From Acanthopleura granulata (taxonomy: Eukaryota > Mollusca > Polyplacophora > Chitonida > Chitonidae), in contig JABBOT010000023.1 in the NCBI GenBank assembly GCA_016165875.1, positions 3,891,469 to 3,955,468 on the forward strand: a stretch of DNA of 64,000 bases, given 5' to 3'. Position numbers and translations under genes: made by a program. Shown piece after piece: positions 18,301 through 47,455 of the stretch. Under the pieces are notes generated by a model. It searched no databases. It saw only the letters and a list, made by a program, of their open reading frames with translations, and was not told the origin of the DNA. How positions within the stretch are numbered: position 1 is the stretch's first letter; each line of letters starts with the position of its first letter.

Positions 18301-18401
18301 GGTTCATGCAGAAACCGGCAGTGTCAGCCAGATTGACCCTTAGACAGTCCCTGAAAATGTTCACAGAAAAACACTTTCGTGACAGAACGTCAACTATTTG
18401 A
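4111..18401 (+). CDS. Divergent Ras-family small GTPase, RERG/RASL-like (4 exons, 253 aa)
   Basis: Exons join 4111-4294, 15482-15538, 16422-16495 and 17955-18401; phases agree and the total is 762 nt. Seen: P-loop GANGVGKS (residues 54-61), G4 NKCD (160-163), G5-like ETSAS (188-192), and RWGDGFLLVYDVTSRTSF, which matches the RERG family style (RWGEGFVLVYDI). A basic C-terminus without a CAAX prenylation box also fits RERG. An N-terminal extension of about 48 residues, partly acidic (DEDELEEME), precedes the G domain. Odd: the Ras Gly12 position is Asn, and G3 reads DTTWR where Ras has DTAGQ, so both the G3 glycine and the catalytic Gln61 equivalent are missing. The effector region (DYDSRSEAIYTHH) lacks the usual PT. 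The protein probably binds GTP with little hydrolysis; that is inference. Start: the first in-frame ATG after a stop at 3973 is 4111; the ATG at 4213 has a stronger Kozak context. The exact orthology group is uncertain. Confidence 0.85.
6364..6403. repeat. (AT)n microsatellite
   Basis: An uninterrupted run of about 30 bases of alternating A and T within GTPase intron 1, flanked by further TA-rich sequence. Confidence 0.9.
9708..9940 (-). mobile_element. SINE copy, degenerate (family 1)
   Basis: Read on the plus strand it gives 'gccgtacttaagaatatttc', 'gaaaaccggacagaaaccga', 'acctacgaccttccgcaggt' and, at the right, 'ttacgctaaccactctgcca'. This is the reverse orientation of the family seen at 37487-37757. 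The tRNA-like head is at the right end. Confidence 0.6.
15482..15538 (+). CDS. GTPase exon 2
   Basis: Acceptor 'tcttccacag' and donor 'gttagt'. Encodes residues 62-80 (ALVVRYLTRRFIGDYDSRS), which completes the Walker A helix and continues into switch I. The sequence is very close to the RERG motif ALVVRFLTKRFIWEYD. Confidence 0.88.
15539..16421 (+). other. GTPase intron 2
   Basis: 883 bp between consensus splice sites. Nothing notable beyond AT-rich sequence; an open frame at 15738-15938 has no supporting motif. Confidence 0.7.
16422..16495 (+). CDS. GTPase exon 3 (altered G3 box)
   Basis: Acceptor 'tttcttggcag' and donor 'cgg|gtaagt'. Encodes residues 81-105 and ends HVMDTTWR, where Ras proteins have DTAGQ. 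Both splice sites are strong, so the unusual G3 is unlikely to come from a misplaced boundary. Confidence 0.85.
16496..17954 (+). other. GTPase intron 3
   Basis: 1459 bp without a recognised element. AT-rich, with short 'actatatac' repeats near 17265-17285. Confidence 0.7.
17955..18401 (+). CDS. GTPase exon 4 (G4, G5, C-terminal tail)
   Basis: Acceptor 'tatcgttccag'. Encodes residues 106-253 and the TGA stop. Includes NKCD, the G5 element ETSAS and a basic tail (for example KIEKLKRFMQK). The last eight codons (FRDRTSTI) and the stop are the first unit of the 30-bp repeat array that fills the downstream region. Confidence 0.9.
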   Translation, partial: SGEKDFQREQIRWGDGFLLVYDVTSRTSFESVKILLEEIRDIRKNTRVPVAIIGNKCDLLHRRVVDEQEGGQFAEQMQCLFLETSASESMDTVTNAFNMVYRDIKIIHRKIEKLKRFMQKPAVSARLTLRQSLKMFTEKHFRDRTSTI

Positions 18402-18915
18402 TGTATACGTGACAGTGCGTCAAGTGTTTGACACTTGCGTGGCAGTACGTCAAATATTTGACAAATGGGTGACTTAAGGTACACCTGCATAACAGTGAGT
18501 CACTGATTTGACTGTTGGGTGACAGAATCCATGACAACTATTTCACACATGCGTGATAGAATGAGGCTATTTGACACCTGTCTGAAAGAACGTCTACTGT
18601 TGGACACATGTGAAACAGAACATCAACTATTTGACACGCCTTTGACAGAATTTCAACAGTTTGACATTTATTTGACAAAATGTGATTTATAGGACACATT
18701 CGTGGCAGAACGTCAACTATCTGATATGTGACAAAATGTTGTTTATTTGCGTCTGCGTGACTTAACGCCAACTAGGTGACATTTTTCTGCTAACGCCAAC
18801 TACTTGAAACCTGTCTGATAGAAAGCGAACTATTCCTGACGCTCGCCAGATAGAACATCAACTTTTTCACGCTTGTCTGATAGAAAGTTTACTTGTTCAT
18901 ATCTGTCTGATAGAC
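18378..18915. repeat. Degenerate ~30-bp tandem array over the GTPase stop codon
   Basis: About 18 units on the pattern 'cgtgacagaacgtcaactat' + 'ttgacacatg', with heavy divergence and small indels. The first unit supplies the GTPase C-terminus and stop. Because the period is near a multiple of three, the minus strand shows repetitive open frames (18275-18490, 18538-18771, with recurring CQIVDVLSR-like motifs) that I regard as by-products. Confidence 0.8.
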
Positions 18916-24424: not shown

Positions 24425-27400
24425 CTGAGAGACGGAAGTCAAGGATAAAAGCATGAATATCTTAACATTCATTTATTTGATCTAATTTCATTGCTGGTTT
24501 TGCCTTTCTCGCCCATATGTGTAACTTGTCTGCTCTGTCACAGGAAGAAACCGGACAGAGCTTGCAGAAAATCACATCAACTAAAAAGGTGTGGAAACCA
24601 GAGGAAACCACAAAGTACTTCCAAAGTACAGGACATACTTGAAGCTAGTACAGGTTTGGTTTATTTTTGCAGGAAATTGGAGAGAATTGAGGAAACAACC
24701 ACACCTGTTTGAAAAACACACAACATACCGCTGAACATTAAGCTCCAGCATGATCACACAACTCACGTGTAGCACCTTAGAACACTAGTGTAGGCTTTCT
24801 GTCTATCATAGATACCACAATACAATTGAGGGGCGTCTGCTGGTAAGGGAATTCCAGATGCCCCCATGCTGTCACTGTTAGATAAGCACCAATCAAATAA
24901 ATAAAAAGAACAATACAATCTCACTGACTGGTTACCTGCATTAAAGAACACGTGAAGGAAAGCTGGATATATAACTACACCTACTAGAGTTTCCTTCAAC
25001 TTGACGCAATTATTTTACCTCCTTTTCAAAGATCTCAAGTAGCGGCTACAGAGATACTCTCACTGATTTAAGGCGGACTTTGAAAATCCATTTGGAGCCC
25101 AAACAGTTACTGTTTTATTTTCCATTTACTTTCAGGAAAACCATTGAATCCTGCATGACAAAACAGGAGTAAGGCATGTAATAATCATTCAATGCAAGCA
25201 TGTAAGTCCACGACTGCTTATCATTAAGACCACATGCCCTTTGTAGTTGTCTCCCCTGAAGGTAACTCCAGTTTCCAGTACAGAAACCGATATTTCACCA
25301 TAAACTGAAAACCTGTGCTTACACGATGTATTGAGTTTCATGGAATTCTCAAAAATATTGCACTTGTAAAACAAAGATCAGGTTTATCGTTTGAGGAAAT
25401 GGTGCAGAGGCTTGGGGAAGCAACTCCCACCACCGCTGACTTTTTATACTGCATTAAATGGAATATAGCAATCTTTTTGTATATTTGTACAGAATATAGA
25501 GAGACAGACAACCCCACTATACTATAACATTAGCTCTACTATGGGGGTGTGAAAAGGATACTGACTTCTAGTGTGGTGGTTTGATCTCGTATGAAGCCAA
25601 GGTCATCTTCTACCTGGGCTAAACTTCTACTCGCTGCATCATAATTTTTCTCTAACAATTTTTCTGCATCGTCTAAATTGTATTCCAACATCACATTAGC
25701 CTGAAAACATATCAATACACATATACAGAATTAATGAAATACACTGATTTACATTTACGTTTGTAAAAGAAAATCTGAAGTAAAACAGATATTCACCTAT
25801 ATAATTGTCTCAAAACACCTGGATGGGCAGGTAGTCAAGATATAATCAGAAAATGCTAATTTTAGCTATAATACACCCAAGTGTAAAACTAACGCTTGAT
25901 TAGTTTTTTTTTTCTTCTCCTCTTAACATAATGATGACAATTGTTCTGTTACTACTGTCACACTTACCCCAAGCCAGAGACAGACTTTTTCTGTGGGAGG
26001 TATCCTAGCCTTGGCATAGAGCTGGTCTGACAATAGAAACCTAGTCTCCAATGGCTCTGTCGAGTCCTGAATTCACAAGATTTATCAGGGTTCATGGTGA
26101 AAGAATTATCAGAAAAAAGAAAAAATCTTTCAGCACATAAATTATTTCTTTTTTTTTCTCAGAAAACAGGAACATCATTGACTTAAAATTATAAGAAAGA
26201 CATTTACATAACTTTCTTCGAATTTCCTGTTTATAGTTCTTGATCATGTTACTTTAGATTTCGAGGCTTAATCCAACTTAACTGAATCGTAAGTTTCAAG
26301 TGAACTGAAAGTTTGAAATAAGGGTGTAAGGGTGCATATATGAACACAGAAAGAGAGAGAGACAGATGCATATGACCACATCACATGAATAACCCAGTCT
26401 ACATGATATTCAACATTTATAGATGAACATCCATGCATGAGGCAAATAATATAGCACTCAATCATGCAACATTAATCAGTTACAGGAATACACGTTACCT
26501 TCTTGCTTTGAAGATGTTTAACGATATCTAGTGATGTTTTTATGTCTGGCAACTGAGTTTTTAACCTGGAAAAACAACAAAAAAGATTGATCAGTTTTGA
26601 AGTTGTTTCAAAAGGTGTGCAAACATATATAGAAACAATCAATAATGTAGGGATGAAGTCAAAGTAGGGTGGCCTTCACTTTGTTTTTCAGCAAGAGTGT
26701 GATTTGCACACCTACATGTATATTTGTACTCCTCAGACTCTTTCAGTATTTCAGGCGTGTGTTCTTTTGCACAACTGGACCTGGTTTCAGCAGTCCGCTA
26801 TATGTGGGAGTGTGATAGCTACAAAGGCGTGAATATGTATCTTAAATACCTTTGAAGCATTTGGCAAATCAAGTTTATCTGTTAGTTCATTTACCAACAT
26901 GATTGGTTATTTAAGGCCACTCTCAAGAATTACGAGTACCAAGTTTATACAGTATCCACAGACAAATTTACCTTGATTTCTTCGTGTTGAGGTTGTATTC
27001 CATGAACTTGTATTTGCTGTGCTGCTCATCTAGTCTTTTCAACACAGCCTCTGCAGACTCATTATTCTCACTCTGTTTCATGAAAGCATCTACATCTTCC
27101 TGCAAAGGAATTATACAGTGGCACTCTTAAACCATCTTTAGATATTCTATCATAAATATTGTAAAACCTAACAGAAAGTTCCAAGACCAAAACCTCTTCC
27201 AAAAGGTGAGGAAACATTACGTCCAAAGTAATTAATCTTCAAACTAAACTTAATTAAATACAGCACAGCTCTACTGGAGGTATGAAACAGGCAAGGTTAT
27301 TGCCTGCTACAATGTCCAAATTCTGATGAATGGACAAATCAGCAGACACACACTGTTTCAAAAGTTGATCAGTTGAATATGGCACCAGTACTGGAGATAT

Positions 27401-31155: not shown

Positions 31156-34100
31156 GTGAGGATAGACAACGCAATGCCCCGAGAAAGGGATCGTCAGTTC
31201 TTTGATCTCGTATTTTGGACAATTATTTAAGGGCCTGGGCCTAGTTAATGTGATGCGGGACATTTTTATTCGACAAAATAATCCACAGGCGCTTTTATTT
31301 CACTTGTGTAAGCCTTGTAGCCCGGAACTGGAAACAACTGTTTCGAACATTCTGATTACAACACTAGCTCAATATTCATTGAGTCACCACTTTTTTTTTA
31401 GAACCATGGTTTCCATTTTAATATATCTTGATGGTATCGAGGCCAATAGATTATCGATTTAAACCCTAGTTTCTTTCTGTGTGGTATCTCACCTTTTACA
31501 TTGTTATCTGACACTAGATGGCAGGCATTTTTTTCTTTTGACAACTGAACAGACCAACAAATTCTTCCCTGTCTTATGACACGTCTCAACTATTTACCAA
31601 AATGAGAAGAAGGAATTACAGCTATCCACTTCCTGATATATCTGTAATAAGTACAAGGATATTTTGCTTTAAGATCTAATACTGAAGATGACGTTATGTT
31701 AATGTAAATAGTACATACTAGTCCTCCTTTAAAATGGACCTAGATACAGTACAATATTGTAGCCCTCCTAGTCCTACTAATGGTTTTGCTGATACAGAGA
31801 GAGAGAGAGAGAGACTTATAGTGTAAGAGTTTATGTGAAATGGGGTGAGTCGGACCAGACCCTGCAAGATCTTAATTATCAGTTCTTGTTTCCAAATTTC
31901 CATGTAAAGGTTCTGTTTCCATCCGTTGTTTTTCAGCAAGGGCAGCCAGAATTTGAAGGCAAATGGCCTTCAATGAAGATAACAGTTCTGAAGCTTTTAC
32001 GACAAGAATGTGTGACGAGGTCCGAATGGCAAGATTTATTTTGGTAAAAAAACAGTTATAATTATCTTCTATGAACAGCGTGATATAAAATGTTGCATCA
32101 AAAGACATTGTGGTTATATAATAGTTGTGATAAGCATACTGTATCCAGATTGGAATGTGTTACAGGTTGAGTAAATTTGAAATTATCTAGTTAAAGCAAA
32201 CCTTGTGAATATCACAGAAAATTTTCCCAGGACTCAAACATTTTAACATGGAGTGAGGCTTCATAAGACTTAATCATTCATTCTCCAAGTTCTGGACACA
32301 TCCCTGTTTGCACAGGCTATCATGGTGTTTATATCAGTTTCTGTGAGTCTCCAATACATTCTTTGAGTCTGTAGAATACTCTGCAGAATATAAGCAAGGT
32401 GTACTTATATGACTTCAACACACAGTTATGTGTAGTTTATTCAGTTACTTGTAGTGTTATGAGCATGGTTGATTAAGTATTTGTTCATTAATGTACTGGC
32501 ATGATCAAGCATATAGATATTTCATTAAGTATGCTGGCTTTACCAGAAAGATATGAAAATATAAGGATAAATGTATTTTATAAATTCTTGGTACATGTCA
32601 TAACTGAAACATTTGTGAGTAAGCACCATTGAAAGATATTGTTTTACTTTGTACAGTAGCAAATTTCACATTGTTTAATGACTAAATTTAAAAATGTCCA
32701 TTGTGTTTTTCATGGTAGAAACTTCTGTTGTGTCACAGCAGTATTTTTCACTGTAAAAATAGTGTTAATATACAGTTACATGAAGATTTAAAACGTTACA
32801 GATTTAAATGTAGTGGTATAATTTATTAAGTGTAAATAGCCGTAAAATGCTTCATTAGGGCCTTGATTCGACAAAATATCCCATGAGAGTGGGATTTTAA
32901 AACCTGTTAAATGTATATTGAACAAGCCATTTTTGTTACATAACCCCTGACAGTGTGCTTACATGTATATGAAAATGTCACCAGAGTTACATCCTGGTGT
33001 GGCATTACATTATGTATGTCATCTTCAAGTGATTTTGAAAGGTTAAAGTCCTGTATTTAACAGACTGTTGTAGCATTGCAATACATGTAGATATTTTATG
33101 CTCACAGAAGTTAGCAAAGTCAACAGCAAGCGTTATGATAGTATGTTTCTGACCTCTTTTGCCTATACCCAGGTTAAAGGCTTTACTTTTACCGGGTTAC
33201 TCATAACTTTTGAAACTCGAAATTATGATCTTTATGTTGACATTTAAGTAAATAGTGAAAAGGGTGACTTGCACTTTTCACTGTGAACAGTGTGAGCATA
33301 TTGTAGGTATTTACATCTCTGTGGTAAAGTGGAATGCAAACAGCAGTGCATAGCCCTGTGCAGATAACAGACATTTTCAGCACCCTTCAGGGCCCTTAGT
33401 GGCTCAGGACTAGAGGTGGCAGCGTCGATTGGCTGTGACTGTTAGACCCCGTCCTCACGAGCTTGCCTGTTTCGTTCCAGCTATAGCTGGTTCAGCTGCA
33501 GCTTTAAGTCAGAATTTAGTGGTGGGAAATCTGGTTTCATCAAGTCTTAAACCTAACTGTTATAACAGTTTTCACGATCTGTGTGTTTAAGGGCAGTACA
33601 CTCAGTTTGTCTATGGGATGACAAAGGCCCTCAGAAGGTTTACCAAGCTCTACAAGATGACATCCTGGACTTTATCAAACAAGCACAAGCTGTAAGTACA
33701 AACTTAGTGTTAAAGCTATGAAGAAAAATCGCAGTGTGGTAGGAGGTCTCTGTGGGAAGGTCTGCCAGCAACCTGCAGATGGTTGTGGGTTTTCCCTGGG
33801 CCCTGCCTGATTGCCTCCCACCATAATGCTGGCTGCTGTTGTATAAGTGAAGTATTCTTGAGTACAGTGTTAAATACCAATGAAATAAAGAAATAAATAA
33901 ACACAATGTGGTAGTAAAGTTCTTGTGTACAGTATAAAAGGCTTTAAATTTGGACTGAAAGAAGTTTAATGAAAGACATTCTTATGTGTTTGAAGAATTA
34001 GAATTTGGCTGCTTTACTTGTTTCTGAGTATCTTGAGGAAAGTATGTAAAGGTAACCAGTTTGGGCGCCCATGAAAATTACTCACATCAAATAAGTCAGA

Positions 34101-37100
34101 ATCCGGTAATTTGGGCAAAAGGTGAATTTATGCTGGCTAATATCTCAATTTAACAAAAATAATACCCTTATTTTTCAACCTTTTCAACCACCGCTGGATG
34201 CAATGTTTGAATATTTTCTTGGAGATCTGTAGGGTGTGGAGAAATAATTCTCATAGTTTTATGAAGCTTATACCTGCGGTGACAAACAAATCATGTTTAG
34301 CTACATTTTTACTATAACTGTATGTGTATAGTACTCTTTAAAAACTGCATTATTGATTGAAAAGGTTGAAGATTTACAGTAAGATACACCATAGGAGTAT
34401 CGCCACAATATGGCTGAGATATTGCTGATGTGGCGCTAAGCCATAATCATTCATTCACCAAAGGAGTACCTTTTGTAAGAAGCTAAAATTTTGATGCACT
34501 CCCGTAATTAGAAATAATCCTACCATGATGTTGACCACTGGCGTATAAGGGAAATATTCTTGAGTACAGCGTTAAACTCCAATCAAATAAATAAGTAATG
34601 AGAAATAATGTTGGTTGAATGGATGAGCTCCAAAAATATGTGCTTATATCCACAAATAAGCCTTGAATTTGTCATTAGTTTTATTGCTCCCATTAACTTC
34701 TGCCATGTTGCAGTTGGTTAGCGCGCTAGTGCAGCGTAATGACCCAGAAGCGTCCCACCAGTGCAGTCACTGTGAGTTCAAGTCCAGCTCGTGATGGCTT
34801 CCTCTCTGGCAGTACGTGGAAAGGTCTGCCAGCAACCTGCGGATGGTCGTGGGCTTCCCCTGGGGCTCAGGATAAAACACTAATGAAATAAATAAATAAG
34901 TTCTTGCCATATTGCAATTTTTAATTCATTAAAAATACTTTCTTTCAGAGAGTTCTTCAGCATCAAGAAGATTCTGCCTTGTTGAAAGCCTACATTGCAG
35001 AATGGAGCAAGTTTTTCACCCAGTGCGACTATTTACCCAAACCATTTGGCCAGTTAGAGACGTCGCTGACTGGGAAGGCTCACAGCAGTATGCAGAAGAA
35101 GTCTCAAGGAGAAGACAGTATTGTCAGAAAGGTCAGTTGTTGAGCCCCAGCGAATTGTATGTCTCAAGTTTTCCCACAGTACAGCTTGCTTAGGTTACAG
35201 CTCTGGTAGTGTATATTGTAAATAAAATATATTTGGTTAAGGCATAAACGTTGATAATTAAAGAAATTACACACTCATTATTGTATAGAATTGTGCTTTC
35301 AGGTGTACATGTACCTTTCTGGAACAATTGGTTTATGTTAGGAACTAGGGGGCTTCTATGGCTGAGGGGGGTTAGCGCACCAGTGTGGCACAATGACCCA
35401 GTTGCCTCTTACCTATTCGATCGCTGTGAGTTCAAGACCAGCTCATGCTGTCTTCCTCTCAGGCTGTACTGGGAAGGGCCGCAACCTGAGCTGTGCCCGG
35501 CTTCCTGCCACCATACTGCTGGCCACTGCTCATATACATGAAATATTCTTGAGTACGGCACAAAACACCAATCAAATAAATAAATAAAGGTTGGGAAGTG
35601 TTTTGTATGGTGTATGTTTATTTTTAGGCAGATTTATGCCGTTGCATAATTGTATATTTTCTTTGCCTTATTCAGCTAATGCTTGACAGCTGGAACCAGA
35701 GTATATTTTCCAACATTAAACAGAGGTTACAAGACAGTGCAATGAAACTGGCCCATGCAGAGAGGAATGGGGAAGCCTTTGATGCACAGCTTGTCATAGG
35801 TGTTAGGGAATCTTATGGTAAATCACACATCCTATGTCTGTAGGACCTATATAATTGATTTTGTCCAGGCAGTACCCAGCCTAAGCTGAATTTTAAGTAT
35901 GACACAGTCATTCAAGCATGACCGAGAGACTGTAAGATTTAACCTGGGAAATCCTATCAGTTTTGATGAACTAACATTTTAGAAACAAGTATTTGAAAAG
36001 GTAGGTGAAAACCCTTTAAAGAAGTCAAGAATTAAGCAGATAATTTGCTCTATAATGTGAAATAGAAATATAAAGGGAGATAAGTCTGTCTGTGGTTTAT
36101 GTAGCAGTCTTGAGCTGAGTTGTCCAGTCATCATTTGCGTTTCAAATATATTCATAATTAAGAGACAGTTTTGTGTGAAAAAGCCAACGGTTATTAACAT
36201 GTAATGTTGGTTATTTTTTCTTTGCAGTAAATCTTAGTTCAGATATAGATGACAAACTCAAAATCTACCGAGAAAATTTTGAACACGCCTACTTGATAGC
36301 CACAGAGAATTTTTACAAGACAAAAGCACCGTTGTACCTAGCTCATAATGGTGTTCAGAATTACATGCGATATGCAGATGCCAAACTAAAGGAAGAGGAG
36401 ATTAGAGCCATGCGATACCTTGAGACAGGATACGGATGCAACTCAGTGGCAGCTGTGAGTAAATACTGCTCCTGTGGTGGTAAATGACAATCATCTTCTC
36501 TATTTACTTGTAAGGTTTTAAATAACACCTTTCCCATGACAGTAATATTCCCAATATGTAAAGTACCAAAATCGGACAAGCATGACATTCTTCTCTTCAT
36601 TGAATATAAAAAATAAAAATATTTATTTCACATCGCAAGCTTGGGAAGTTAACACATTTGATCTCTTTAATTACCGTTAAGTCAGCAAAACTTTACCTCT
36701 ACAACCTTCATGTTTCAAAGTTAAGCCCCAAAATTACTGTACTGGGTAAGCCCAAACTTACATATGAATTCCCCACAAGACAGATGGAAATTGGGTAATA
36801 GTCACATTCAAAACTATGGTGTATAAAATACTCCTGAAACTGTTTTTTGGGAAGCCCCAAATTTAGGAAAGCAAACAAAGTTATCTTAACCCTTCTTTCA
36901 AAATGCATTGCCTTTTGAAGTGGAGGGAGGGGGAAGGGGTAAAAAACTGTGGCTACATTATTGTAGCCTTCTTTAGATTTAAGATTTCTGAACTGTAATC
37001 ATGTCTTTCTTGTTTGTTTGACAGTTAACGGAGTGTTGTGTTAACGTCCTGGTGACAGCTTTCAAAGAGACAATCTTACACGAGTGTGCCACTATGATAA

Positions 37101-40100
37101 AAAATAATGAAACAGAAAGTAAGTCACCTGTCTTCCGATGATTCATGTATACTTAACTTTTAATGCTGGGTTGATAGCTAAATGTACAACATTAAATACA
37201 AGCATACTTAGATACATACGTACAACTGGCCTGCAGCACTTGGCCTGCAGTGCTTTATGTGGTCTTACATGAAGTTTGTCTGTCCAAGATGACATTATGA
37301 CATACACTAATGGTCAGAGTCAGTATACAGTTTGTCAGCTGTTTGTTGTGGACAGGTGAGTTACTGAGCACCTTCAGTTTCCTCCACCCATGGAGCTGAC
37401 TGCTCTTGTACGAGTTAAGGGAGAAACAGATACAAGATGTCATATGGTAACAACAAGCTCAAGAACACAGACATCAACGATATGAGGGGCCTCCGTGGCT
37501 CAGTCGGTTAGCGCGCTATTGCAACACAATGACCTAAAGCCTTCCAACAATGCAGTCACTGTGAGTTCAAGACCAGCTCATGCTGGCTTCCTCTCCGGCC
37601 GTACGTGGGAAGGTCTGCCAGCAACCTGCGGATGGTGGTGGGTTTCCTCCAGGCTGTGCCTGGTTTCCTCTCACTATAATGCTGGCTGTCGTACAAGTGA
37701 AATATTCTTGAGTACAGCGTAAAACACCAATCAAATAAATAAATAAATAAATAAATCAAAGATATGCTCTGTGAATTTGCAATATTACAGAAAAAAGTCA
37801 CTAAATAGATAAGGGTGTGATGCATTTGATTTTATCTGAGGTTTTAATATTTTAAATACTGCGAGTTATTTATGCTTTAAATTTCTGTTGTATATCTGTT
37901 TTTATTATACATGTAATTGTCCAGTGTTGCGATATTATGTAGTTATGTACAGCTCATGATGTTACTTTTACTTTCATCGAGAATGGAATGAAAAGTAACG
38001 TTTTCAAGACGGTGTGACATCGCCTCGGGCATGTGGGATTTCACAAAAATTAAGAATTCACGAATCTTTGTTTACAGCTGACCACTGTTTATGTAGTTTT
38101 ATACTTACTTTTAATCACAGTACTAACATTTAATAGTGGGTTATAATATATGGGTTAATGGCTTGTTTGACTCTATTTGGACTCATCCTAGCAGACTTGG
38201 ATTGTTTTTTACAACATTCTCCGGAATGTCTCAGTCAATATTCAGATACCTTAACCGAGCCTGGAGGAATGTCCAACTGAGACGCTAAACTGTTTCTGTT
38301 GCTTATATTTCAGAGTTACAGCTGATGTTCAGTCTAATGGACCGGGTGCCTGATGGCATCACTCCGATGTTACATGATCTCGAGGCTCACATTGTCAGTC
38401 AGGGGCTTGCTGATATGATAGCTGCTGCAGAAAGTATCACACAAGTGAGTTATCTCCCCTAAGTTCGTCATCTCTTCTTCCATATCATATATATATGAAG
38501 TCTTTTGGAGTCTCTGAGTGTTTCCCAGCTGGATGAATTCATTGTAGCACGTGGCTGTCATCATCGCTGTTGTTTTTTTTTTCCATTATAATGTAATTCC
38601 CTGAAGACCTGCCTGTGAATCATAATGTATATGTTGAGTGACACAGTGTCTGCATTTTTCTTTGATTACCTGCAGTAGTTGCATTACCAGAAAAATGGGA
38701 AGAAAGAGAAAGAAAGAAATCACATGTTCGTAATTTGTGCATTGAAATACATGTACCATAAATGATCTAAATTTTCCTCCATTTTTTCTGATTTTGAGAG
38801 TTTTATTGATTTTGGAAAGGTGGTTTTCAGGTGTATTTGGAAGGTGGGATGATATCCCTGTAGAAAAATGTGAGTTTCAGGACCAAAAGCAACATTTTAT
38901 GACATTTTTTTCCTCTAAAAATGCCTTGTCATGGACGAATTTTTCAGGTCATTTAAAGTAGTTTTATTTCACATGATAAATGATTTACAGTGGCCTTTGC
39001 CTCATTTTTTGTGGTGAAATAGCGAAGTGGTGTAAAGCAGCTACACACTTTGTTATGTGCTAACCTGACTTGATTGGCTGCGTCTGTTTCAGGATTCAGA
39101 GAAGTATGTAGAACAGCTACTAGAATTGTTTAATAGGTTCAGCGCCTTGGTCCGAGAAGCATTTAGTGACGACCCTAGGTTTTTAACCTCTAGGGATAAG
39201 GTGAGTATAGCACATCATTTTCGCTTGGATTATCAAAGGGAGATCTAACTTCTTAAATGTGGCATGTATGGTCAAGCAGTTTTAGCGTTGTAAAAATAGA
39301 CATGTCCGTATGGACATTTCACATTAGGCCTGGCCTGCTGTACAGTGAGACGCTCTGTGTAATATTGTGAGAATCAATGTTAAACCACCAGCAAGCAAAC
39401 CACAGAACAGACTTGTGGGAGAGGCAGGGAGGAGGCAGGGATGAATCTTGTCCATATAAGTGTTTTTGTTCAGACAGAGTTATAAGGGGTTCCTTGGGGT
39501 GAAGCACCCATTGGATTGGGTACATGTGGTCATTGTGTTTGAAGCTGACACAGAATGAACACTTTGAGGTAAAGTCTGTGGTTCTGACATTGTTGTGATG
39601 TATAAGTGAAATACGTAATAAAAGTCAATATGTAAGCGTGTGTTGAATGTTCTTGAAAGTTTCACCTCTGTTGTTGGAAAACTGTATAAAAATTGCATAA
39701 ATAATAATTCCCCCAAAACTTTTGTCTTTCGATCATGCCTGTATTGAAGCCTTATTACTTCTTGAGTTCATGTTGTCTTTGATCATTGTTTTTTTTTTTT
39801 TTCCAGGCATACAAAAGCGTGGTGAATGACACATCAGTATTTAAATTAGAAATTCCCATCAAAAATAAAAGGTAAGTTTGCATTTGTCCAGTGTCTGAGG
39901 ATTAGAAATTTTTAATTTATAAAATCTGAGAAATGCTTAAGTTGGTGAAATAACATCCCTGACTTCCTGTGATCGCATTTCCAAATCCTATACATGAGGC
40001 CACTATCAAATAAGTTGATTTTTCAGTACGACATTAAAGAGCAATGAAGTAAATATTAGTTAATACAAATAAATCCAAGTGTTTGTCTTTATGAATTTAT

Positions 40101-43100
40101 GTCCATGATTGATCTCCAGTTACTTTTTTCCTGGCTTTTTGTACCTGTCAGCTGATTTGTCAGAATATGTGCTGTGTCTCTCAGTTTCAGCAGTGTAGGA
40201 GGTAAAACACAGCCCGAGTCCAAGTGCCCCGAACTACTGGCAAATTTCTGTGATATGCTTTTGAGAAAAACACCTCTTAGTAAAAAACTTACCTCAGAAG
40301 AAGTAGAAAGGAAACTTAGGGATGTTGTAAGTATGAAATTTTGAATTCTAAGTCTGAAATGAGCATTGAGTGGTGATGTCGCCACTAATACACATATTCC
40401 TTTGTGGCGATTTGTACTGATGTGTTTTGTGAATCATGTTGATTTCTTAAGAACACTGGTTAAAGAAAAATGTGCCTGTGGGTGTATTACACCTTACCTT
40501 ACCAAAGTTTAATTATTAAGCTCTATGTCTGGCTTCAGGTGAAATGAATATGATAGTTGGCAAAGTTTGCCATAGATGAAGTGAGATTTCTTGCTGTAAT
40601 GAGGAGACACCATTTGGTTTAGGTCTTTTGTAACAACTAATTATGACTATGTCCAGGAGATTGTAGGAGTTTGTATCATTGTGATTGTTGCTTGCTTCAG
40701 ATTGAAGGTAACAGGAGCCTGTATTTGTCGTTATTCTCATGATTTGTAGTTTGTTTCAGCGGTAAGATTCAAGAATACAGGAGCCAGTCTTTACCATTAT
40801 GATGTATGGCTTGTTTCAGCTATTAGTGTTGAAGTATGTACAGAACAAGGATGTGTTCATGAGGTACCACAAGGCACACCTGACGCGCAGACTTATCCTG
40901 GACACGTCAGCCGATAATGAGAAGGAGGAGAACATGGTCGAGTGGCTGAGGGTAAGGTGTTGTTCTGTGTATACCAATACATAGGCAATTAGCTCAGTCA
41001 CCCTTGTGCAGTGGCTGAGTGTAAGGTTGTACACTGTAACCCAGTTTTTAGTGATACTTTGCTAAAAGGTTTTGTTCTCTCTATGTTAACTTCTTAAAAA
41101 CCTCTGTCTTTTTCAAAAGCTAGAGTAAGGACGCCCAACAAACAGGTTTTTAGGAAAGCCTCAGTCAATGGGCTTGTTGCACTTGTCTTTCAATTGTTAG
41201 GACTCCTGAGGTGTGGGTTCAGAAATATGTGAACTGTTCCACTCTCACTGCTCACAAGGCCATATGTGAACTGTTCCACTCTCACTGCTCACAAGGCCAT
41301 AGGTGAACTGTTCCACACTCACTGCTCACAAGGCCATATGTGAACTGTTCCACTCTCACTGCTCACAAGGCCATATGTGAACTGTTCCACTCTCACTGCT
41401 CACAAGGCCATAGGTGAACTGTTCCACTCTCACTGCTCACAAGGCCATAGGTGAACTGTTCCACTTTCACTGCTCACAAGGCCATATGTGAACTGTTCCA
41501 CACTCACTGCTCACAAGGCCATATGTGAACTGTTCCACTCTCACTGCTCACAAAGCCATGGTCAGAGTAAGCGGTCCTCAGTGCTCTTAGTTTGCACCGT
41601 CTCGCATTCATTTGAAAACCATTTGATCCTTCCACCAGTATGATGTGCATATCCATGCAGCACACATGAAAAAGTTTCTGAGCAACCTGCCAAAGGTTGG
41701 TGGTTTACCTTGGACACTCTAGTTTTCTCCACCTATATAACTGGCCACCATCGTGTACATGAAAATTTCTTCAGTATATTTTTAAACAATGTTCAGATAA
41801 GTAAATCATATATCTTTTTCGACCTTTCAGCTTCAGACATAACCACTTGATTTTTGGTAGTGTTCAAAGTTATAAATCAGTGGTCAGGTGAGAACATAGG
41901 TTAAGTGACCAAAGGTCAATATTTGGCAGGCTGTCTTACCCTTCAACTGAACATCTGAACAGTGAACAGCTGAAAATGATGACAGGTATCTGATAAACTA
42001 TAAATTCTAACATACCAGTAAATGATTACTAAATACAGGTACATGTATGTCGATGGGGAACATATATGCACATCTCTGATTGTTTTAATCATGGTGTTCA
42101 CACATATCTTAATAGAATCATGACCAGGCAGATCACATGTCCTGTTATGTGCTGCAGAATCAGTTAAGTTGTTAGTGCCATGCCATATCCAAGAAATACA
42201 AGTAAAGTGATTGGAGAAAATAACACAGTTCTGTGGAAAGCATTCAGTTGCTTATTTATTTATTTCATTGGTGTTTTACACTGTACTCAAGAATCATTTC
42301 ACTTTTACGATGGCGGCCCGCATTGTGGTGAGTGGAAAAGACAGGAGGAATCATACAACCCTATGCAGGTTGCTGGCAAACTTTCCTATGTATGGCCGGA
42401 GGGAAAACCACCTCAGCTACACAGATCCCAACTGATGGAGCCAGAGTTACATGCACTGTACGTCATAATATCCATATGATGTGATTTTCTTACAGGAAGT
42501 TGGAATGCCAGCAGATTATGTCAACAAGCTGGCCCGAATGTTTCAAGACACAAAAGTCAGTGATGATTTGAATGTAGAATTCAAGGATGCACACAGGAAT
42601 AACAATGAGGGATTAGCAGGTGAGACATGTGACTCAAAGGCTACAGCCAAGATACTGCTGCAGGCTTCCGTGTAGTCAAATCATATGAAAATGTAAACCG
42701 TCAAAGTTTAACAAGCGACACCTAGTCATTATCAGACTTTGTGTTCAGTCAGCTCATGAGGTCCAAGGAGGGGAATATTGTAAATTCAGCAGATGTGATG
42801 CACATCAGTTAACTTAACAAGGAATTTTACTCTTTTCTACACATACTTCCTCAGTCATTCGCTAAGTTCATGTACAGCTCATTTGGCATGGAAGGAAGGA
42901 GATATAAATACTGCAAATACCATTTATTTACCTTTAATAACAAGCAGGCACATAAAACTTGAGAACATTCAATCAACATGACAATGGATTGAGCAGATTC
43001 GATGCTTATTATTTTACGTAACAAGGAATTTTACTCTTATCTACGTTTACTGGCCCAACTATTCTCAAAGTTTATGTACAGCTCATCAAACATGCAAGCG

Positions 43101-46100
43101 AGGGGATATATATCCAGCAAATTACGTGCAAATATTTACCTTAACAATCTGATACGTAAGTCTTTAACTGATTTGTAAGGTTAATTTATGTTGAGTTATA
43201 GGGAGTTAGATCGATCACTTTTCTTAAATTTTAAGTTCTTCTATAATATTAAATCTCCGGCAACACATGCACCTGGTTTGGTGACACACAACACAACACA
43301 TCTGAGTGTATTCCAGTCACTGTCAATTGTTACTTTCTGTTATTTCAGATTCCATAAACATCAAGATCCTGAACGCTGGGGCTTGGGCGCGGACAAGTGA
43401 CCGAGTGTCGGTGTCGTTGCCCATGGAGCTGGAGGATTACATCCCTCAGGTAGAGGAGTTCTACAAGCTCAAACACAGCGGCAGGAAGCTACAGTGGCAT
43501 CATCTCATGTCCAACGGAATTGTACGTATCAGTCAAATGCCAGCTTCTTCTTACCTAATACCTTTAGACCTAATTCTTCATTTGGCAGTAGTTAGTAATT
43601 TTTAATAGTGGAATTTTATATTCCATTATAATCTAAAAGGTACATCTTAAGAGGGAAATAAATGTCATCAAATATTCTCTGGATGACACTCATGGTTGTC
43701 CGGTAGGATATGATCCAACCTTTCAATGAAACCTCAAAACAACTGCCTAAAAAACAAAAGAATTCTTAGTATAAGCAAAATAAGAAACTTAGCTACTTTT
43801 TAACAAATTTTATGTCATTTAGGGGGTCTATAATTCTGAGCTTCTAGTCTTTGTTGTCTTCTTGATTTTACCCTTTTCATGCTAACAGCAATAGTTTGAG
43901 TGATGGGATTCCTGCAGCAACAATAGTGAGCTCTGAATAGCAATAAATGTACTCTTTTGTGCAATGTGTCAGTGACATGCCAAATGGTGGTGGTTTACCG
44001 GAGCTCCCCGATTTCCACCCTCCATAAAACTGACAGTAATCATATAAGTGAAAAATGTTTGAGCATGGTGTTACACTACAATTAATTAAATAAATAAATA
44101 AATAAATACAGTCTGATGCAAAATTTGTCATTCCAGATAACGTTCTGCAACGATGTCGGTAAATTTGATCTAGAGGTGACAACATTTCAAATGGCTGTAT
44201 TATTTGCATGGAATCAGCGGCCTAAGGACAGAATCTCATACGAAAGCTTACGACTGGCGACAGAACTGCCCGATGCTGAACTCCGCAGGACTCTTTGGGT
44301 AGGCAGCTCATGGCTACGATTCTGGCTTTGCTAACCTCTGCAATTGCCCAAATTCATAGCACTGGTCAGTTTTGACCCATGATAATTTAATAAGGCTGCC
44401 AGTATCAGCATCAGAATGTAGAATGTTGTGTAGAATAAGTAAAATGTTATTATGCAATATAATTGCCTGGCCCTAGTATGACAGTGATGTTTAGGCTGTT
44501 TTGTCAGGAGGTTTCTATATTACTTGTGGACATGGTCAGATTACAGTTCTATTCCGGCATGACTTTTAAATTGCTCTAAGAGGGTAGCCTGCTTTATGTA
44601 TCTATGTGTTCTTTCAGTCATTAGTATGTTTCCCTAAGACATGTGTCTCTGCTGTCTTGTTATTTACAGTCACTAGTATGTTTCCCTTAGATCTGTGTCT
44701 GTCATCTTGTTACAGTCATTAGTGTGTTTCCCTAAGATCTACGTTTATGCTGTCTTGTTACAGTCATTAATGTGTTTCCCCAAGATCTCTGTCTATGCTG
44801 TTATGTTAGTCATTAGTGTGTTTCCCTAAGATCTACGTTTATGCTGTCTTGTTGCAGTCATTAGTGTGTTTCCATAAGATCTCTGCCGCTTCTGTCTTGT
44901 TACAGCTGTTAGTGTGTTTCCCTAACATCTTTGTCTGTGTTGTCATGTTACAGTCATTATTGTGTTTCCCTAAGATCTACATTTATGCTGTCTTGTTGCA
45001 GTCATTAGTGTGTTTCCATAAGATCTCTGCCGCTTCTGTGTTGTTACAGCTGTTAGTGTGTTTCCCTAACATCTTTGTCTGTGTTGTCATGTTACAGTCA
45101 TTATTGTGTTTCCCTAAGATCTACATTTATGCTGTCTTGTTGCAGTCATTAGTGTATTTCCCTAAGGTCTCTGCCTCTTCTGTCTTGTTACAGCTGTTAG
45201 TGTGTTTCCCTAACATCTTTGTCTGTGTTGTCATGTTACAGTTGTGAGTGTGTTTCCCTAAGATCTGTCTATGCTGTCTTGTTACAGTCATTAGTGTGTT
45301 TCCCTAAGATCTGTGTCTACACTGTCTTGTTACAGTTGTTAGTGTGTTTCCTTCAGATCTGTCTCTGTTGTCTTGTAACAGTCATTATTGTTTTTCCCAA
45401 AGATCTGTCTAGACTGTCTCGTGACAGTCATTAGTGTGTTTCCCTAAGATCTCTGTCTATGCAGCCTTGTTACAGTCATTAGTGTATTTCCCTAAGATCT
45501 ACGTTTATGCTGTCTAGTTGCAGTCATTAGTGTGTTTCCCTAAGATCTCTGCCTCTTCTGTCTTGTTACAGTCATTAGTGTGTTTCCCTAAGATCAAGCG
45601 TCAGGTGTTGTGCTGTGGACCGGACTGTAAATCACCCAAGGAGTTCACCGATAGCACCCAGTTCTGGGCCAATCAGGAATTTGCTCTCATGTAAGTACTG
45701 TATAAAGGCTACGTCACAATTGCAGATGATCAGCTCATTATTCTGTGTGTACTTATTGTGAGTTACATTGGAACAGTACAGTAAACTTGTATATAGCTCA
45801 CTAATCTGGTTACAAATAATATTAAGGAGTATGGCAAACATTGGTATACATGGAAATTATTGGTAGTTGTGTTAGTAGTTTACAAAAATAGAGAAGGCCG
45901 TGGCTTGCTCATTGGCCAAAAGTGTTGTTCAAGCCATTGCCAATTCATTTTGACCATTGAGGTTACAAGTTCAAATCCATGTTCCTTTGATTCTGGCTTT
46001 TTGTCCTGAATTTCATCTTGTACATGCAAAGCAGTGGTGATTTACTCCTTGCATTCAGTTTAACTTCAATTCAGTAAAGTAAATAAATCAATTTGGTTCC

Positions 46101-47455
46101 TTCTACACACCATTGACTTGTGATTGATCATCGTCCAGTCTTGTTATACTTTGGGTTATCATATAAACCAATGACTGACCAATATATATTGAATTGAAAC
46201 CTTCATATGTTGCAGCAAAAATGGGCGTCTCCAGAAGCGTGGGAAAATCAATCTGATTGGTCGTCTGCAGTTGTCGACAGAGAGAAGTCGAGAGGAGGAT
46301 AACGAGGGGATAATGCAGCTGAGAATACTCCGAGTTCAGGTACACTTAAAACAAGAAGGTTTATCACCTCAATTCCCCCCATCATAATGCTGGCCGCCAT
46401 GGTATAAGTGAAATATTCTTAAGTATGGCATAAAGCATTAAATCAAATGAATAATTAAATAGTTTTTGCGCTGTTCGTCTTCAACACAAAAGGGAGATAA
46501 GTCAAGACCAGCATGTTCATCCAGTCTTATTCTTGCACCATTGACTGGCCAAACTGTTCAGCTAAACTCAAACCAGTATGTCTGCAAGGCCTCATTCTAG
46601 ATTGACAAGCCAAACATTCTATACTGTTCAGGTAAACTCAAAACCAACAGGTTTACATAGCTTACTCCTTCGAGCTTTGACAAGGCAGACAGATAAAACT
46701 GTTTAAGTAAACTATAAACCAACAGTTCACAAAGTTTGATACTTGCAAACCACACTGAATGGTTCCGTTAACTGCTAAACTTAAACACACCAATGAATAG
46801 TGTTTATGTGCAAGTTATAAGTTGGCATTCTGTTTGCACCATGTACAGTTTTATATGGGGTTATCTGCCTTGATGTTTGAGCAACACCTAATATAAAATG
46901 TTCTTTACCTGGCGATAGTCAGTACCATGAAACTTGTGAAAACCGGACTTCAGATATATTGGAACCCTGTCAACACCAACAGTTTCATGCGGTCCACTTT
47001 CTTATCCATGTAAAACACATACAATTCAACCTCGACATACCTGAACACCGAATGTGTTTATTAATCCCATGCTAATCTGACATGAGAAAACTGATGTGCT
47101 GTGCATCTGCGCAAACACATGTCCAGGAGCCTCTCCTGTTGGCGGTAATCCAACCAACATAGGTAAACACTAATCCCAAGCAGTGACTTAAAGTCACTGA
47201 TCAGCGTCCTGCTGCACAGCGTTGAACATCAGTGCAATAAAATGCTGTTTCAATTTCCAGGAGGCCATTGTGAAGATCATGAAAATGAGGAAGAGGATTA
47301 CAAATGCCGCTCTGCAGACAGAACTCGTGGAAATTCTCAAAAATATGTTCTTGCCTTCAAAGAAACTGATCAAGGAGCAGATAGAGTGGCTCATTGAGCA
47401 TAAGTACATGCGCAGGGACGAGGAAAATATCAACATGTTTATTTATATGGCATAA
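31135..47455 (+). CDS. CUL5: Cullin-5, E3 ubiquitin ligase scaffold (18 exons, 780 aa)
   Basis: All 18 exons join in frame to 2343 nt, giving 780 aa, the same length as human CUL5. CUL5 is the scaffold of CRL5 ligases: the N-terminal cullin repeats bind Elongin B/C with SOCS-box receptors, and the C-terminus binds RBX2 and receives NEDD8. Seen: DNA-encoded N-terminal repeat region (about residues 1-370, for example LLKAYIAEWSKFFTQCD, NYMRYADAKLKEEE), the cullin homology region (VQNKDVFMRYHKAHLTRRLI, WHHLMSNGI, DLEVTTFQMAVLFAWNQRP) and the winged-helix end with the neddylation motif IVKIMKMRK (Lys724). The protein ends HKYMRRDE...FIYMA, as is usual. Introns 11 and 15 have duplicated 3' splice sites. 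Identity is certain; only exact acceptor choice at exons 2 and 11 has small alternatives. Confidence 0.98.
31797..31815. repeat. (GA)n microsatellite
   Basis: A short run of alternating G and A in CUL5 intron 1. Confidence 0.9.
31937..32043 (+). CDS. CUL5: CUL5 exon 2
   Basis: Residues 8-43: QPEFEGKWPSMKITVLKLLR and on to EWQDLFW. Acceptor 'ttgtttttcag', donor 'gtaaaa'. The Trp codon is split across the intron. Confidence 0.95.
32044..33591 (+). other. CUL5 intron 2
   Basis: 1548 bp, AT-rich. A stretch near 33389-33540 has a 'ccttagtggctcaggac' SINE-head-like start but no clear body. No exon seen. Confidence 0.7.
33592..33691 (+). CDS. CUL5: CUL5 exon 3
   Basis: Residues 43-76: AVHSVCLWDDKGPQKVYQAL then QDDILDFIKQAQA. 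It uses an AAG acceptor ('gtgtttaag'), less common than CAG; the frame and homology require it. Confidence 0.95.
33750..33902 (+). mobile_element. SINE 3' part (family 1)
   Basis: 5'-truncated copy: 'gtgggaaggtctgccagcaa', 'cctcccaccataatgctggc', 'agtattcttgagtacagtgt' and an 'aataaagaaataaataaa' tail. Confidence 0.85.
34165..34380. mobile_element. MITE-like element, copy 1 (pairs with 51428-51642)
   Basis: Terminal inverted repeats: 'tttcaaccttttcaaccac' at the left and 'gattgaaaaggttgaagatt' at the right. The interior matches the copy at 51428-51642 ('ggtgtggagaaa', 'agttttatgaagct', 'caaa[tc]a[gt]atcatttta'). About 215 bp, no coding capacity. Confidence 0.75.
34402..34460 (+). repeat. Repeat end fragment
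   Basis: 'caatatggctgagatattgc' followed by 'tgatgtggcgctaagccata' and 'atcattcattca', a block that looks like the 3' end of an abundant repeat family. Only this fragment is seen. Confidence 0.4.
34530..34599 (+). mobile_element. SINE 3' end fragment (family 1)
   Basis: 'ggcgtataagggaaatattc', 'ttgagtacagcgttaaactc' and 'caatcaaataaataa': the last 70 bp of the family. Confidence 0.8.
34705..34902 (+). mobile_element. SINE copy (family 1), internally deleted
   Basis: tRNA-like 'cagttggttagcgcgctagt', B box 'gagttcaagtccagctcgtg', 'tctgccagcaacctgcggat', then a jump to 'ataaaacactaatgaaataa'. The block before the tail is deleted. Confidence 0.85.
34949..35131 (+). CDS. CUL5: CUL5 exon 4
   Basis: Residues 77-137, phase 0 at both ends: RVLQHQEDSALLKAYIAEWS, KFFTQCDYLPKPFGQLETSL and on to GEDSIVRK. 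Acceptor 'actttctttcag', donor 'gtcagt'. Confidence 0.97.
35350..35588 (+). mobile_element. SINE copy (family 1)
   Basis: 'ggttagcgcaccagtgtggc', B box 'gagttcaagaccagctcatg', 'atgaaatattcttgagtacg' and the tail 'caccaatcaaataaataaat'. Nearly full length, in CUL5 intron 4. Confidence 0.9.
35676..35817 (+). CDS. CUL5: CUL5 exon 5
   Basis: Residues 138-185: LMLDSWNQSIFSNIKQRLQD, SAMKLAHAERNGEAFDAQLV and IGVRESY. Acceptor 'ccttattcag', donor 'g|gtaaat'. Confidence 0.97.
36228..36454 (+). CDS. CUL5: CUL5 exon 6
   Basis: Residues 185-260: NLSSDIDDKLKIYRENFEHA, then GVQNYMRYADAKLKEEEIRA and MRYLETGYGCNSVAA. Acceptor 'ttctttgcag', donor 'gtgagt'. Confidence 0.97.
36455..37024 (+). other. CUL5 intron 6
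   Basis: 570 bp; no element recognised. Confidence 0.7.
37025..37118 (+). CDS. CUL5: CUL5 exon 7
   Basis: Residues 261-292: LTECCVNVLVTAFKETILHE, CATMIKNNETE. Acceptor 'tgtttgacag', donor 'gtaagt'. Confidence 0.97.
37487..37757 (+). mobile_element. SINE, best full-length copy (family 1)
   Basis: tRNA-like head with an A-box match 'tggctcagtcgg' in 'cctccgtggctcagtcggtt' + 'agcgcgc', and a B-box-like 'gagttcaagaccagctcatg'. Body words: 'ccgtacgtgggaaggtctgc', 'cagcaacctgcggatggtgg', 'ataatgctggc' and 'gtgaaatattcttgagtaca'. It ends in (AAATA)n. About 270 bp, no open frame of note; propagation would need LINE machinery. It serves as the reference for the other copies listed here. Confidence 0.93.
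38314..38444 (+). CDS. CUL5: CUL5 exon 8
   Basis: Residues 292-335: LQLMFSLMDRVPDGITPMLH, DLEAHIVSQGLADMIAAAES, ITQ. Acceptor 'tatatttcag', donor 'gtgagt'. Confidence 0.97.
38445..39092 (+). other. CUL5 intron 8
   Basis: 648 bp; no element recognised. Confidence 0.7.
39093..39200 (+). CDS. CUL5: CUL5 exon 9
   Basis: Residues 336-371, 36 codons in phase 0: DSEKYVEQLLELFNRFSALV, REAFSDDPRFLTSRDK. Confidence 0.97.
39201..39806 (+). other. CUL5 intron 9
   Basis: 606 bp. 39320-39400 may be a very decayed SINE ('gttaaaccaccag'); too weak to call. Confidence 0.6.
39807..39871 (+). CDS. CUL5: CUL5 exon 10
   Basis: Residues 372-393: AYKSVVNDTSVFKLEIPIKN K. The acceptor is preceded by a run of T, donor 'gtaagt'. 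Confidence 0.96.
40191..40326 (+). CDS. CUL5: CUL5 exon 11
   Basis: Residues 393-438: SVGGKTQPESKCPELLANFC, DMLLRKTPLSKKLTSEEVER, KLRDV. Two acceptors 6 nt apart ('ctctcag' and 'tttcag') are both in frame; the upstream one would add two residues. Confidence 0.95.
40327..40819 (+). other. CUL5 intron 11 with duplicated 3' splice-site segments
   Basis: 493 bp. The last 180 bp contain about 60-bp units, each ending in a pyrimidine-rich acceptor ('cttgcttcag' at 40700, 'tttgtttcag' at 40759, real 'cttgtttcag' at 40819). Each is followed by sequence similar to the start of exon 12 ('ttgaag..acaggagcc'). Confidence 0.65.
40820..40951 (+). CDS. CUL5: CUL5 exon 12
   Basis: Residues 439-482, phase 0: LLVLKYVQNKDVFMRYHKAH, LTRRLILDTSADNEKEENMV, EWLR. 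This is the most conserved cullin block. Confidence 0.98.
41229..41561. repeat. 37-bp tandem repeat, 9 copies
   Basis: Unit 'gtgaactgttccactctcac' + 'tgctcacaaggccatat', starting at 41229 and every 37 bp to 41525. Variants are a few point changes (ata/agg, actc/acac/actt). It lies in CUL5 intron 12. Confidence 0.97.
41630..41806 (+). mobile_element. SINE copy, strongly decayed (family 1)
   Basis: 'gagcaacctgccaaaggttg', 'gtggtttacc', 'cacctatataactggccacc' and 'tgtacatgaaaatttcttca' follow the family order; the tail is reduced. Confidence 0.5.
42251..42430 (-). mobile_element. SINE copy (family 1), lacks tRNA head
   Basis: 'ttatttatttcattggtgtt', 'actgtactcaagaatcattt', 'tacgatggcggcccgcattg', 'caggttgctggcaaactttc' and 'ggccggagggaaaaccacct': inverted copy in CUL5 intron 12. 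Confidence 0.85.
42496..42619 (+). CDS. CUL5: CUL5 exon 13
   Basis: Residues 483-524: EVGMPADYVNKLARMFQDTK, VSDDLNVEFKDAHRNNNEGL, A. Acceptor 'ttttcttacag', donor 'gtgaga'. Confidence 0.97.
42620..43348 (+). other. CUL5 intron 13
   Basis: 729 bp. Contains two similar segments ('aacaaggaattttactctt' at 42818 and 43020, each followed by 'atgtacagctcat'), which indicates an old local duplication of about 200 bp. Confidence 0.6.
43349..43521 (+). CDS. CUL5: CUL5 exon 14
   Basis: Residues 524-581: SINIKILNAGAWARTSDRVS, VSLPMELEDYIPQVEEFYKL, KHSGRKLQWHHLMSNGI. Donor 'gtacgt'. Confidence 0.97.
43522..44136 (+). other. CUL5 intron 14
   Basis: 615 bp. Its last 150 bp (about 43960-44108) is a decayed plus-strand SINE: 'gacatgccaaatggtggtgg', 'catataagtgaaaaatgttt', then an (AAATA)n tail that runs almost to the acceptor. 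Confidence 0.65.
43960..44108 (+). mobile_element. SINE copy, decayed (family 1)
   Basis: Family order is kept ('gtttaccggagctccccg', 'ataaaactgac', 'tttgagcatggtgttacact') and the tail is 'attaaataaataaataaata'. It ends 28 bp before CUL5 exon 15. Confidence 0.65.
44137..44298 (+). CDS. CUL5: CUL5 exon 15
   Basis: Residues 582-635, 54 codons in phase 0: ITFCNDVGKFDLEVTTFQMA, VLFAWNQRPKDRISYESLRL, ATELPDAELRRTLW. Donor 'gtaggc'. Confidence 0.97.
44607..45595 (+). repeat. 48-bp tandem array copying the exon 16 splice junction (~21 units)
   Basis: Each unit is 24 nt of the intron 3' end (pattern 'tctgcctcttctgtcttgtt' + 'acag') plus the first 24 nt of exon 16 ('tcattagtgtgtttccctaa' + 'gatc'). 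AG dinucleotides end at 44617, 44669, 44715, 44763, 44809, 44857, 44905, 44953, 45001, 45049, 45097, 45145, 45193, 45241, 45287, 45335, 45381, 45427, 45475, 45523 and 45571, the last being the real acceptor. Most steps are exactly 48 bp; a few are 46 and the first is 52. A 144-bp trimer is repeated from about 44831 to 45241. The 143-aa open frame at 44816-45247 is a by-product of the multiple-of-three period. Confidence 0.95.
45572..45690 (+). CDS. CUL5: CUL5 exon 16
   Basis: Residues 636-675: SLVCFPKIKRQVLCCGPDCK, SPKEFTDSTQFWANQEFAL. The start matches the human SLVAFPKLKRQVL block. Acceptor 'tcttgttacag', which 20 upstream copies imitate. Donor 'gtaagt'. Confidence 0.96.
45885..46093 (+). 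mobile_element. SINE copy, decayed (family 1)
   Basis: Head 'ggccgtggcttgctcattgg', B-box-like 'gaggttacaagttcaaatcc', tail 'agtaaagtaaataaatcaa'. The body is strongly diverged. Confidence 0.5.
46216..46339 (+). CDS. CUL5: CUL5 exon 17
   Basis: Residues 675-716: KNGRLQKRGKINLIGRLQLS, TERSREEDNEGIMQLRILRV, Q. Acceptor 'atatgttgcag', donor 'gtacac'. Confidence 0.97.
46362..46462 (+). mobile_element. SINE 3' part (family 1)
   Basis: 'ccatcataatgctggccgcc', 'atggtataagtgaaatattc' and 'ttaagtatggcataaagcat', with an AT-rich tail. Confidence 0.8.
46928..47200. repeat. Dispersed repeat, copy 2 (pairs with 29290-29605)
   Basis: Same ordered words as copy 1 in the VBP1 intron. It ends about 60 bp before CUL5 exon 18. 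Confidence 0.75.
47261..47455 (+). CDS. CUL5: CUL5 exon 18 (neddylation domain and stop)
   Basis: Residues 717-780: EAIVKIMKMRKRITNAALQT, ELVEILKNMFLPSKKLIKEQ, IEWLIEHKYMRRDEENINMF, IYMA, TAA. Lys724 in the IMKMRK motif is the expected NEDD8 acceptor. Confidence 0.98.
   Translation, partial: EAIVKIMKMRKRITNAALQTELVEILKNMFLPSKKLIKEQIEWLIEHKYMRRDEENINMFIYMA

Follow-up and report, generated by a model that had tools for sequence, protein, structure and literature searches.

A tandem array of acceptor-site repeats at an intron-exon junction of CUL5 in the chiton Acanthopleura granulata

What becomes of an intron when its 3' end, together with the start of the following exon, has been repeated in tandem some 20 times, and which of the resulting acceptors is the spliceosome to use? 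This question is raised by CUL5 of the chiton Acanthopleura granulata, which lies in a stretch of 64,000 nucleotides (the window; all coordinates refer to it). Such structures have a name: 'mirages' are tandem repeats that span an intron-exon boundary, so called in lancelet Adh3 and described in the lancelet globins BflGb6 and BflGb9 (PMC3087553). We consider it rather likely that the chiton array is a tolerated mirage minisatellite, born from the CUL5 intron-exon junction, in which the 3'-most acceptor is the one used; the array would then probably be harmless.

Host gene and anatomy of the array

The gene was identified as CUL5 in the original prediction, and the PDB agrees: with a 444-residue piece as query, the best match is Cullin-5 (E 1.7e-219). 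A gene model guided by CUL5 of Solemya velum has a frame that is open to the final stop, and its product is identical to the cullin-5-like isoform X2 of Liolophura sinensis, a chiton of the same subfamily, at 767/771 residues (99.5%). The host intron separates RRTLW from SLVCFPK (the W|SLV junction), and the array adjoins the 5' side of the conserved SLVCFPK exon. The features of the locus are as follows:

31940..47455, + strand: CUL5 coding region, 17 modelled exons without the short first coding exon (Solemya velum CUL5-guided model)
44299..45571, + strand: host intron, phase 0, donor GTAGGC, 1273 nt (exon model)
44605..44617, + strand: incomplete intron half that opens the array; its AG is the farthest acceptor upstream (wrap-around alignment)
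44618..45571, + strand: 20 full repeat units, each of 24 nt exon-like sequence plus an intron half ending in AG (TRF, wrap-around alignment)
44810..45241, + strand: 144-bp higher-order repeat, ABC three times, units 5-13 (lag distances); without good counterpart in the damaged gene copies described below
45382..45523, + strand: units 17-19, decoys whose pyrimidine tract contains an additional AG
45524..45571, + strand: terminal unit, with exon-derived CCCTAAG (A at 45543, -28), the longest pyrimidine run and the real acceptor AG (45570-45571)
45572..45690, + strand: real exon, SLVCFPKIKRQV..., 119 nt; its first 24 nt (45572-45595) are the exon part of the repeat

By TRF the array has a period of 48 bp and 20.6 copies (44615-45595, 78% matches), and by wrap-around alignment it contains 20 full units, which bears out the earlier description of a roughly 20-fold 48-bp repeat ahead of the real exon. 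Fourteen units are 48 bp long, units 2, 4, 14, 16 and 17 are 46 bp, and unit 1 is 52 bp. In the same alignment each unit is made of 24 nt that resemble the exon start, followed by an intron half with a terminal AG. The original prediction had put this composition at exactly 24 plus 24 nt: that figure stands on the exon side, where the homology of the repeat ends after 24 nt, but on the intron side the limit of the unit is set by the period alone, and weak similarity continues upstream to about 44570. Position 45571, the coordinate previously given for the real acceptor, is the G of its AG; the exon begins at 45572. An AG is present, as had been claimed for every unit, at all 21 acceptors (20 decoys and the real site; 20 are CAG and one is TAG), with a spacing of 46-52 nt. 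After the preceding AG, 14/20 full units start with TCA and none with GT.

Mean divergence between units is lower in the exon halves (14.1%) than in the intron halves (22.9%). Five of the 20 exon halves match the real exon start exactly, and the decoy exon halves lack a coding pattern (8/8/6 changes at codon positions 1/2/3). The proposed nested 144-bp repeat was recovered: units 5-13 read ABC ABC ABC, and among lags 1-9 the smallest distance is that at lag 3 (0.133). The inner units are homogenised (7 = 10 = 13, 8 = 11); the ends of the array are more different. Elsewhere in the 64-kb window the best match to the array has an E value of only 0.18. The structural features of a mirage are found here: the array spans the intron-exon boundary, its units carry splice signals, and its inner units are homogenised while its ends have diverged.

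Damaged CUL5 copies and the age of the array

The array has matches at five other places in the genome. A dispersed satellite was rejected as an explanation, because each of the five is a genomic copy of CUL5, in which other sequence of the gene adjoins the array:

L002-L011, contigs C12, C23 and C1: damaged, intron-containing CUL5 copies, five in number; the three on C1 lie within 1 Mb

Four of these copies align over much of 40.0-48.8 kb of the window (one of them from 42.3 kb), and the fifth only over 45.2-46.8 kb. Each carries one or more stops where it matches a CUL5 exon, as judged from 10-kb pieces that leave the upstream exons outside. Outside the array, functional CUL5 differs from the copies by a K2P distance of 0.12-0.21 in five segments and by 0.245 in one 96-nt piece, and the copies differ among themselves by 0.04 to 0.33. 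A tree of 1871 columns joins the three C1 copies (98%), with the other inner branches short. The arrays of the copies hold 11, 9, 7, 6 and 3 acceptor slots, compared with 21 in the functional gene (these are paralogous copies, not alleles); in the fifth copy the CUL5 sequence starts inside the array, and another copy is without its last acceptor.

These copies bear on the age and the reality of the array. Because all five carry the same array at the junction, the array is older than the damaged copies. We also weighed the idea that it is an artefact of assembly, bearing in mind that the A. granulata assembly contains 10.19% N (a figure from PMC11068029), so that the exact copy number may be off. 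An artefact is nevertheless scarcely credible: 17/20 units are distinct rows, mean divergence between units is 18.5%, and the same array stands at five other loci.

The copies further suggest which parts of the array are old. For their 31 full units, the closest functional units are 1, 2, 3, 15, 18 and 20; units 7, 10 and 13 are closest once, in an eight-way tie, and the remaining units never. This pattern points to a middle block that probably grew later, in the functional gene. Position-by-position orthology between the functional array and the copies was rejected, the order of units not being conserved overall (rho 0.08, permutation P 0.25).

Decoy acceptors and the choice of the splice site

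In silico splicing of the donor at 44298 to each of the 20 upstream AGs gave a premature stop in 19 cases. Only the nearest decoy, 45523, reads through, and it adds 16 residues in frame. This insert, the stop behind decoy 45475 and the shifts of frame caused by the 46-bp steps further upstream all accord with what had been foreseen.

Since the frame through 45523 is open, this decoy could contribute its 16 residues to a protein isoform, a reading that we hold to be very improbable. A protein search with the insert gave 41 matches, none of which carries it (the database is clustered at 90%, and an isoform could hide in a cluster), and a search with the longest open frame of the array (145 residues) gave 3829 candidates, none at E <= 0.001; isoforms were accordingly rejected as far as protein searches can detect them, neither query having matched a protein with decoy residues. 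Unit 19, moreover, has an extra AG 7 nt ahead of its acceptor. L. sinensis CUL5 is annotated with a plain W|SLV junction and no insert. More broadly, 107/120 CUL5-like proteins are readable at this junction and all 107 are uninterrupted there, as are 27 of 28 further ones, all of them readable. The original prediction had left a choice between constant use of the last AG and isoforms or splicing noise; the plain junction of L. sinensis and the absence of any decoy-derived protein in these searches appear to favour the former.

The one interrupted protein (P0130) is a predicted isoform X1 of cullin-5 from the pipefish Syngnathus acus, with an unrelated insert between RRTLW and SLVAFPK. It resembles what a retained intron, or an upstream acceptor at the same position, would give in the fish.

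How could a 20-unit array be tolerated? A duplication across an acceptor would leave an intact junction at its downstream end, so that, if the last AG is chosen, the extra copies become intron and the protein is unchanged. We propose that the last AG is indeed the one used in A. granulata, and that stray transcripts from decoys would be cleared by nonsense-mediated decay. This account builds on what is established: the anatomy, the open frame, the plain junction in the annotated protein of a relative, the stops behind 19/20 decoys and the array in five damaged copies. The intact terminal unit and the fact that the array spans the junction lend it further support.

The strength of the sites does not by itself explain the choice. 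We built an acceptor matrix from the gene's 15 other modelled acceptors; by it the decoys score 7.0 on average and the real acceptor 5.5 (rank 14/21), with a leave-one-out mean of 6.5 for the other 15; as the decoys are not weaker by this measure, the strength of its sequence is not enough to mark out the real site. The real acceptor does have the maxima for pyrimidines (17/20) and for their longest run (8 nt), a pair of values that it has in common with unit 12 only. The branch-like motif that scores best for the real acceptor, CCCTAAG with its A at -28, lies in copied exon sequence; units 7, 10 and 13 carry CCCTAAC (both by branch-motif weights). Splicing prefers the first AG downstream of the branch site (PMC1431707, PMC7317903). 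A branch site that predates the array would have to sit some 1 kb away, with 20 AGs in between, and the array therefore probably supplies the branch site itself. CCCTAAG, once Pro-Lys codons, would be that of the real acceptor, and former coding DNA would thus probably serve as an intron signal. If so, coding sequence became an essential signal of the intron while the protein was kept. Other features may favour the real site as well: a donor close by (45691), a better tract, and the weakening of the nearest decoys.

We also considered RNA structure that hides the decoys, and rejected it: the fold of the array is more stable than those of 20 shuffles (z -2.19), yet openness does not single out the real acceptor, which ranks 12, 19 and 3 of 21 in three settings (the sums are approximate, one value being slightly negative). 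That neither decoy strength nor RNA openness marks the real site speaks against use of the last AG, and so does the point that L. sinensis may lack the array.

An alternative is that decoy use is regulated, 19 of the 20 decoys giving stops and decay, with array length or splicing factors setting the dosage of CUL5. We judge this to be unlikely. That the decoys score like real acceptors and that 19/20 lead to stops would both fit, but stops are expected in unconstrained repeats. The AG is retained at 21/21 functional acceptors and at 29/36 slots of the damaged copies; the loss of 7/36 versus 0/21 gives a Fisher P of 0.039, which rises to 0.07-0.08 if one uncertain slot at an edge is left out or if rows of identical sequence are counted once. 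Apart from the AG, the intron halves have diverged equally in both (0.18 functional, 0.156 damaged copies). This comparison is a weak hint of selection. As proof of selection we rejected it, as it is borderline against the copies, and within the functional array AG retention is not significant (P about 0.11); it is equally expected from selection on the terminal unit and spread by unequal exchange.

The tolerated mirage may be refined by supposing that selection has disabled the decoys nearest the exon, which we regard as possible though doubtful. Units 17, 18 and 19 are the only ones whose intron half contains a further AG (1 of 969 arrangements), and in NF1 a newly created AG that falls after the branch site and ahead of the acceptor is reported as a frequent cause of mis-splicing. 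By a motif rule that asks for CTAA[CG] at a distance of 20-34 nt, for CAG at the acceptor and for the absence of an extra AG, 11/19 decoy units are intact, whereas all four of those closest to the real exon, whose use would give exons of 167-309 nt, are defective (P 0.018, post hoc). The pattern was, however, picked after looking; a rank test over all 19 decoys gives P 0.20, an extra AG could itself be used, and the gains of AG are as many as drift predicts (about 9% per change, with 30 intron-half changes). We treat the defects of the near decoys as a weak lead and not as a result. It is quite unlikely that these elements combine into a dosage element, in which decoy use feeds nonsense-mediated decay, near decoys are silenced by selected AGs in their tracts, the others are kept competent and the branch site comes from copied coding sequence.

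Related systems and other features of the window

The chiton CUL5 array is a long, old acceptor mirage, and mirages are a published kind. The original prediction that no cullin case had been described holds in that the literature matches listed contain no mirage in a cullin, or in a mollusc (most subscription papers lie outside the coverage); the kind itself, however, had been published from lancelets, the only animals with mirages among those matches. In one of the lancelet globin genes the repeated boundary is an acceptor, with 6 units in one haplotype and 3 in another, and RT-PCR suggests normal splicing (PMC3087553); a later lancelet paper adds PGBD5 and cites TnC (PMC3902484). As described in these sources, lancelet mirages likewise span the boundary, keep the AG in many units and have homogenised inner units. 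BflGb6 has units of 150-160 bp in 6 and 3 copies, whereas chiton CUL5 has 48-bp units in 20 copies. The chiton array also differs in its host, a mollusc, in its gene, CUL5, in its inheritance by five damaged gene copies and in its exon-derived branch-like motif. With its 20 copies in a strongly conserved gene of a mollusc, and with five decayed counterparts elsewhere in the genome, the array offers a natural experiment on the choice of one among 21 near-identical acceptors and on whether selection silences decoys.

A minisatellite in human IFI6 (6-16) reportedly consists of multiple splice donors that are used (Turri et al. 1995). It too is made of splice sites, but these are donors; the chiton units hold acceptors, with no sign of use, and repeated donors of the IFI6 type are absent from them.

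Intron gain by tandem duplication of an AG/GT proto-splice site (the Rogers model; PMC2891723, PMC4974935) likewise turns exon sequence into intron. In contrast, the chiton intron was already present at W|S and grows at its 3' end, and its units lack a GT directly after the AG. NAGNAG tandem acceptors (PMC3250501) resemble the array in that several AGs compete for one donor, but they are 3 nt apart, whereas most chiton units, at 46-52 nt, have their own tract and branch-like motif.

Duplication of junctions may recur in CUL5, although only the 48-bp array is multi-copy. We compared 16 acceptors and 16 donors of the gene with the neighbouring 500 nt (60 shuffles each), and 4/32 junctions scored above the shuffles: acceptors 45572 and 40820 and donors 40951 and 46339. 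With 1000 shuffles none reached the score of 40820 (42 vs 37), 40951 (38 vs 36) or 46339 (42 vs 39). The 46339 pair has a BLAST E value of only 0.99 and is placed in another repeat.

40699..40820, + strand: second acceptor duplication; the intron end that precedes the exon at 40820 is present twice in tandem, as copies of 66 and 60 bp (score 50 vs <=32 in 2000 shuffles)

Splicing to its decoy, 40759, would bring in a stop as the second codon. Donor 40951, of the same exon as acceptor 40820, seems to be copied at 41010-41043 (feature 40941-41043; score 38 vs <=36 in 1000 shuffles). At 40180-40194 there are three closely spaced acceptors (CTCAGTTTCAGCAG); at this place our model is three residues (SFS) shorter than isoform X2 of L. 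sinensis. Another CUL5 intron contains a 37-bp minisatellite (41225-41559, 9.1 copies at 96%), which is skipped by the aligned blocks of three damaged copies that cover both its sides.

Three further features of the window were noted. An interspersed element with the core TTGATTGGTGTTTTACGCC occurs at nine places, for example 20834, 37716 and 52205, five on the + and four on the - strand, with up to 4 mismatches. Part of a Ras-family gene lies at 17895-18401 (+), with short repeats at the 3' end of the Ras frame (18371-18463), and part of a prefoldin subunit gene at 25542-25730 (-).
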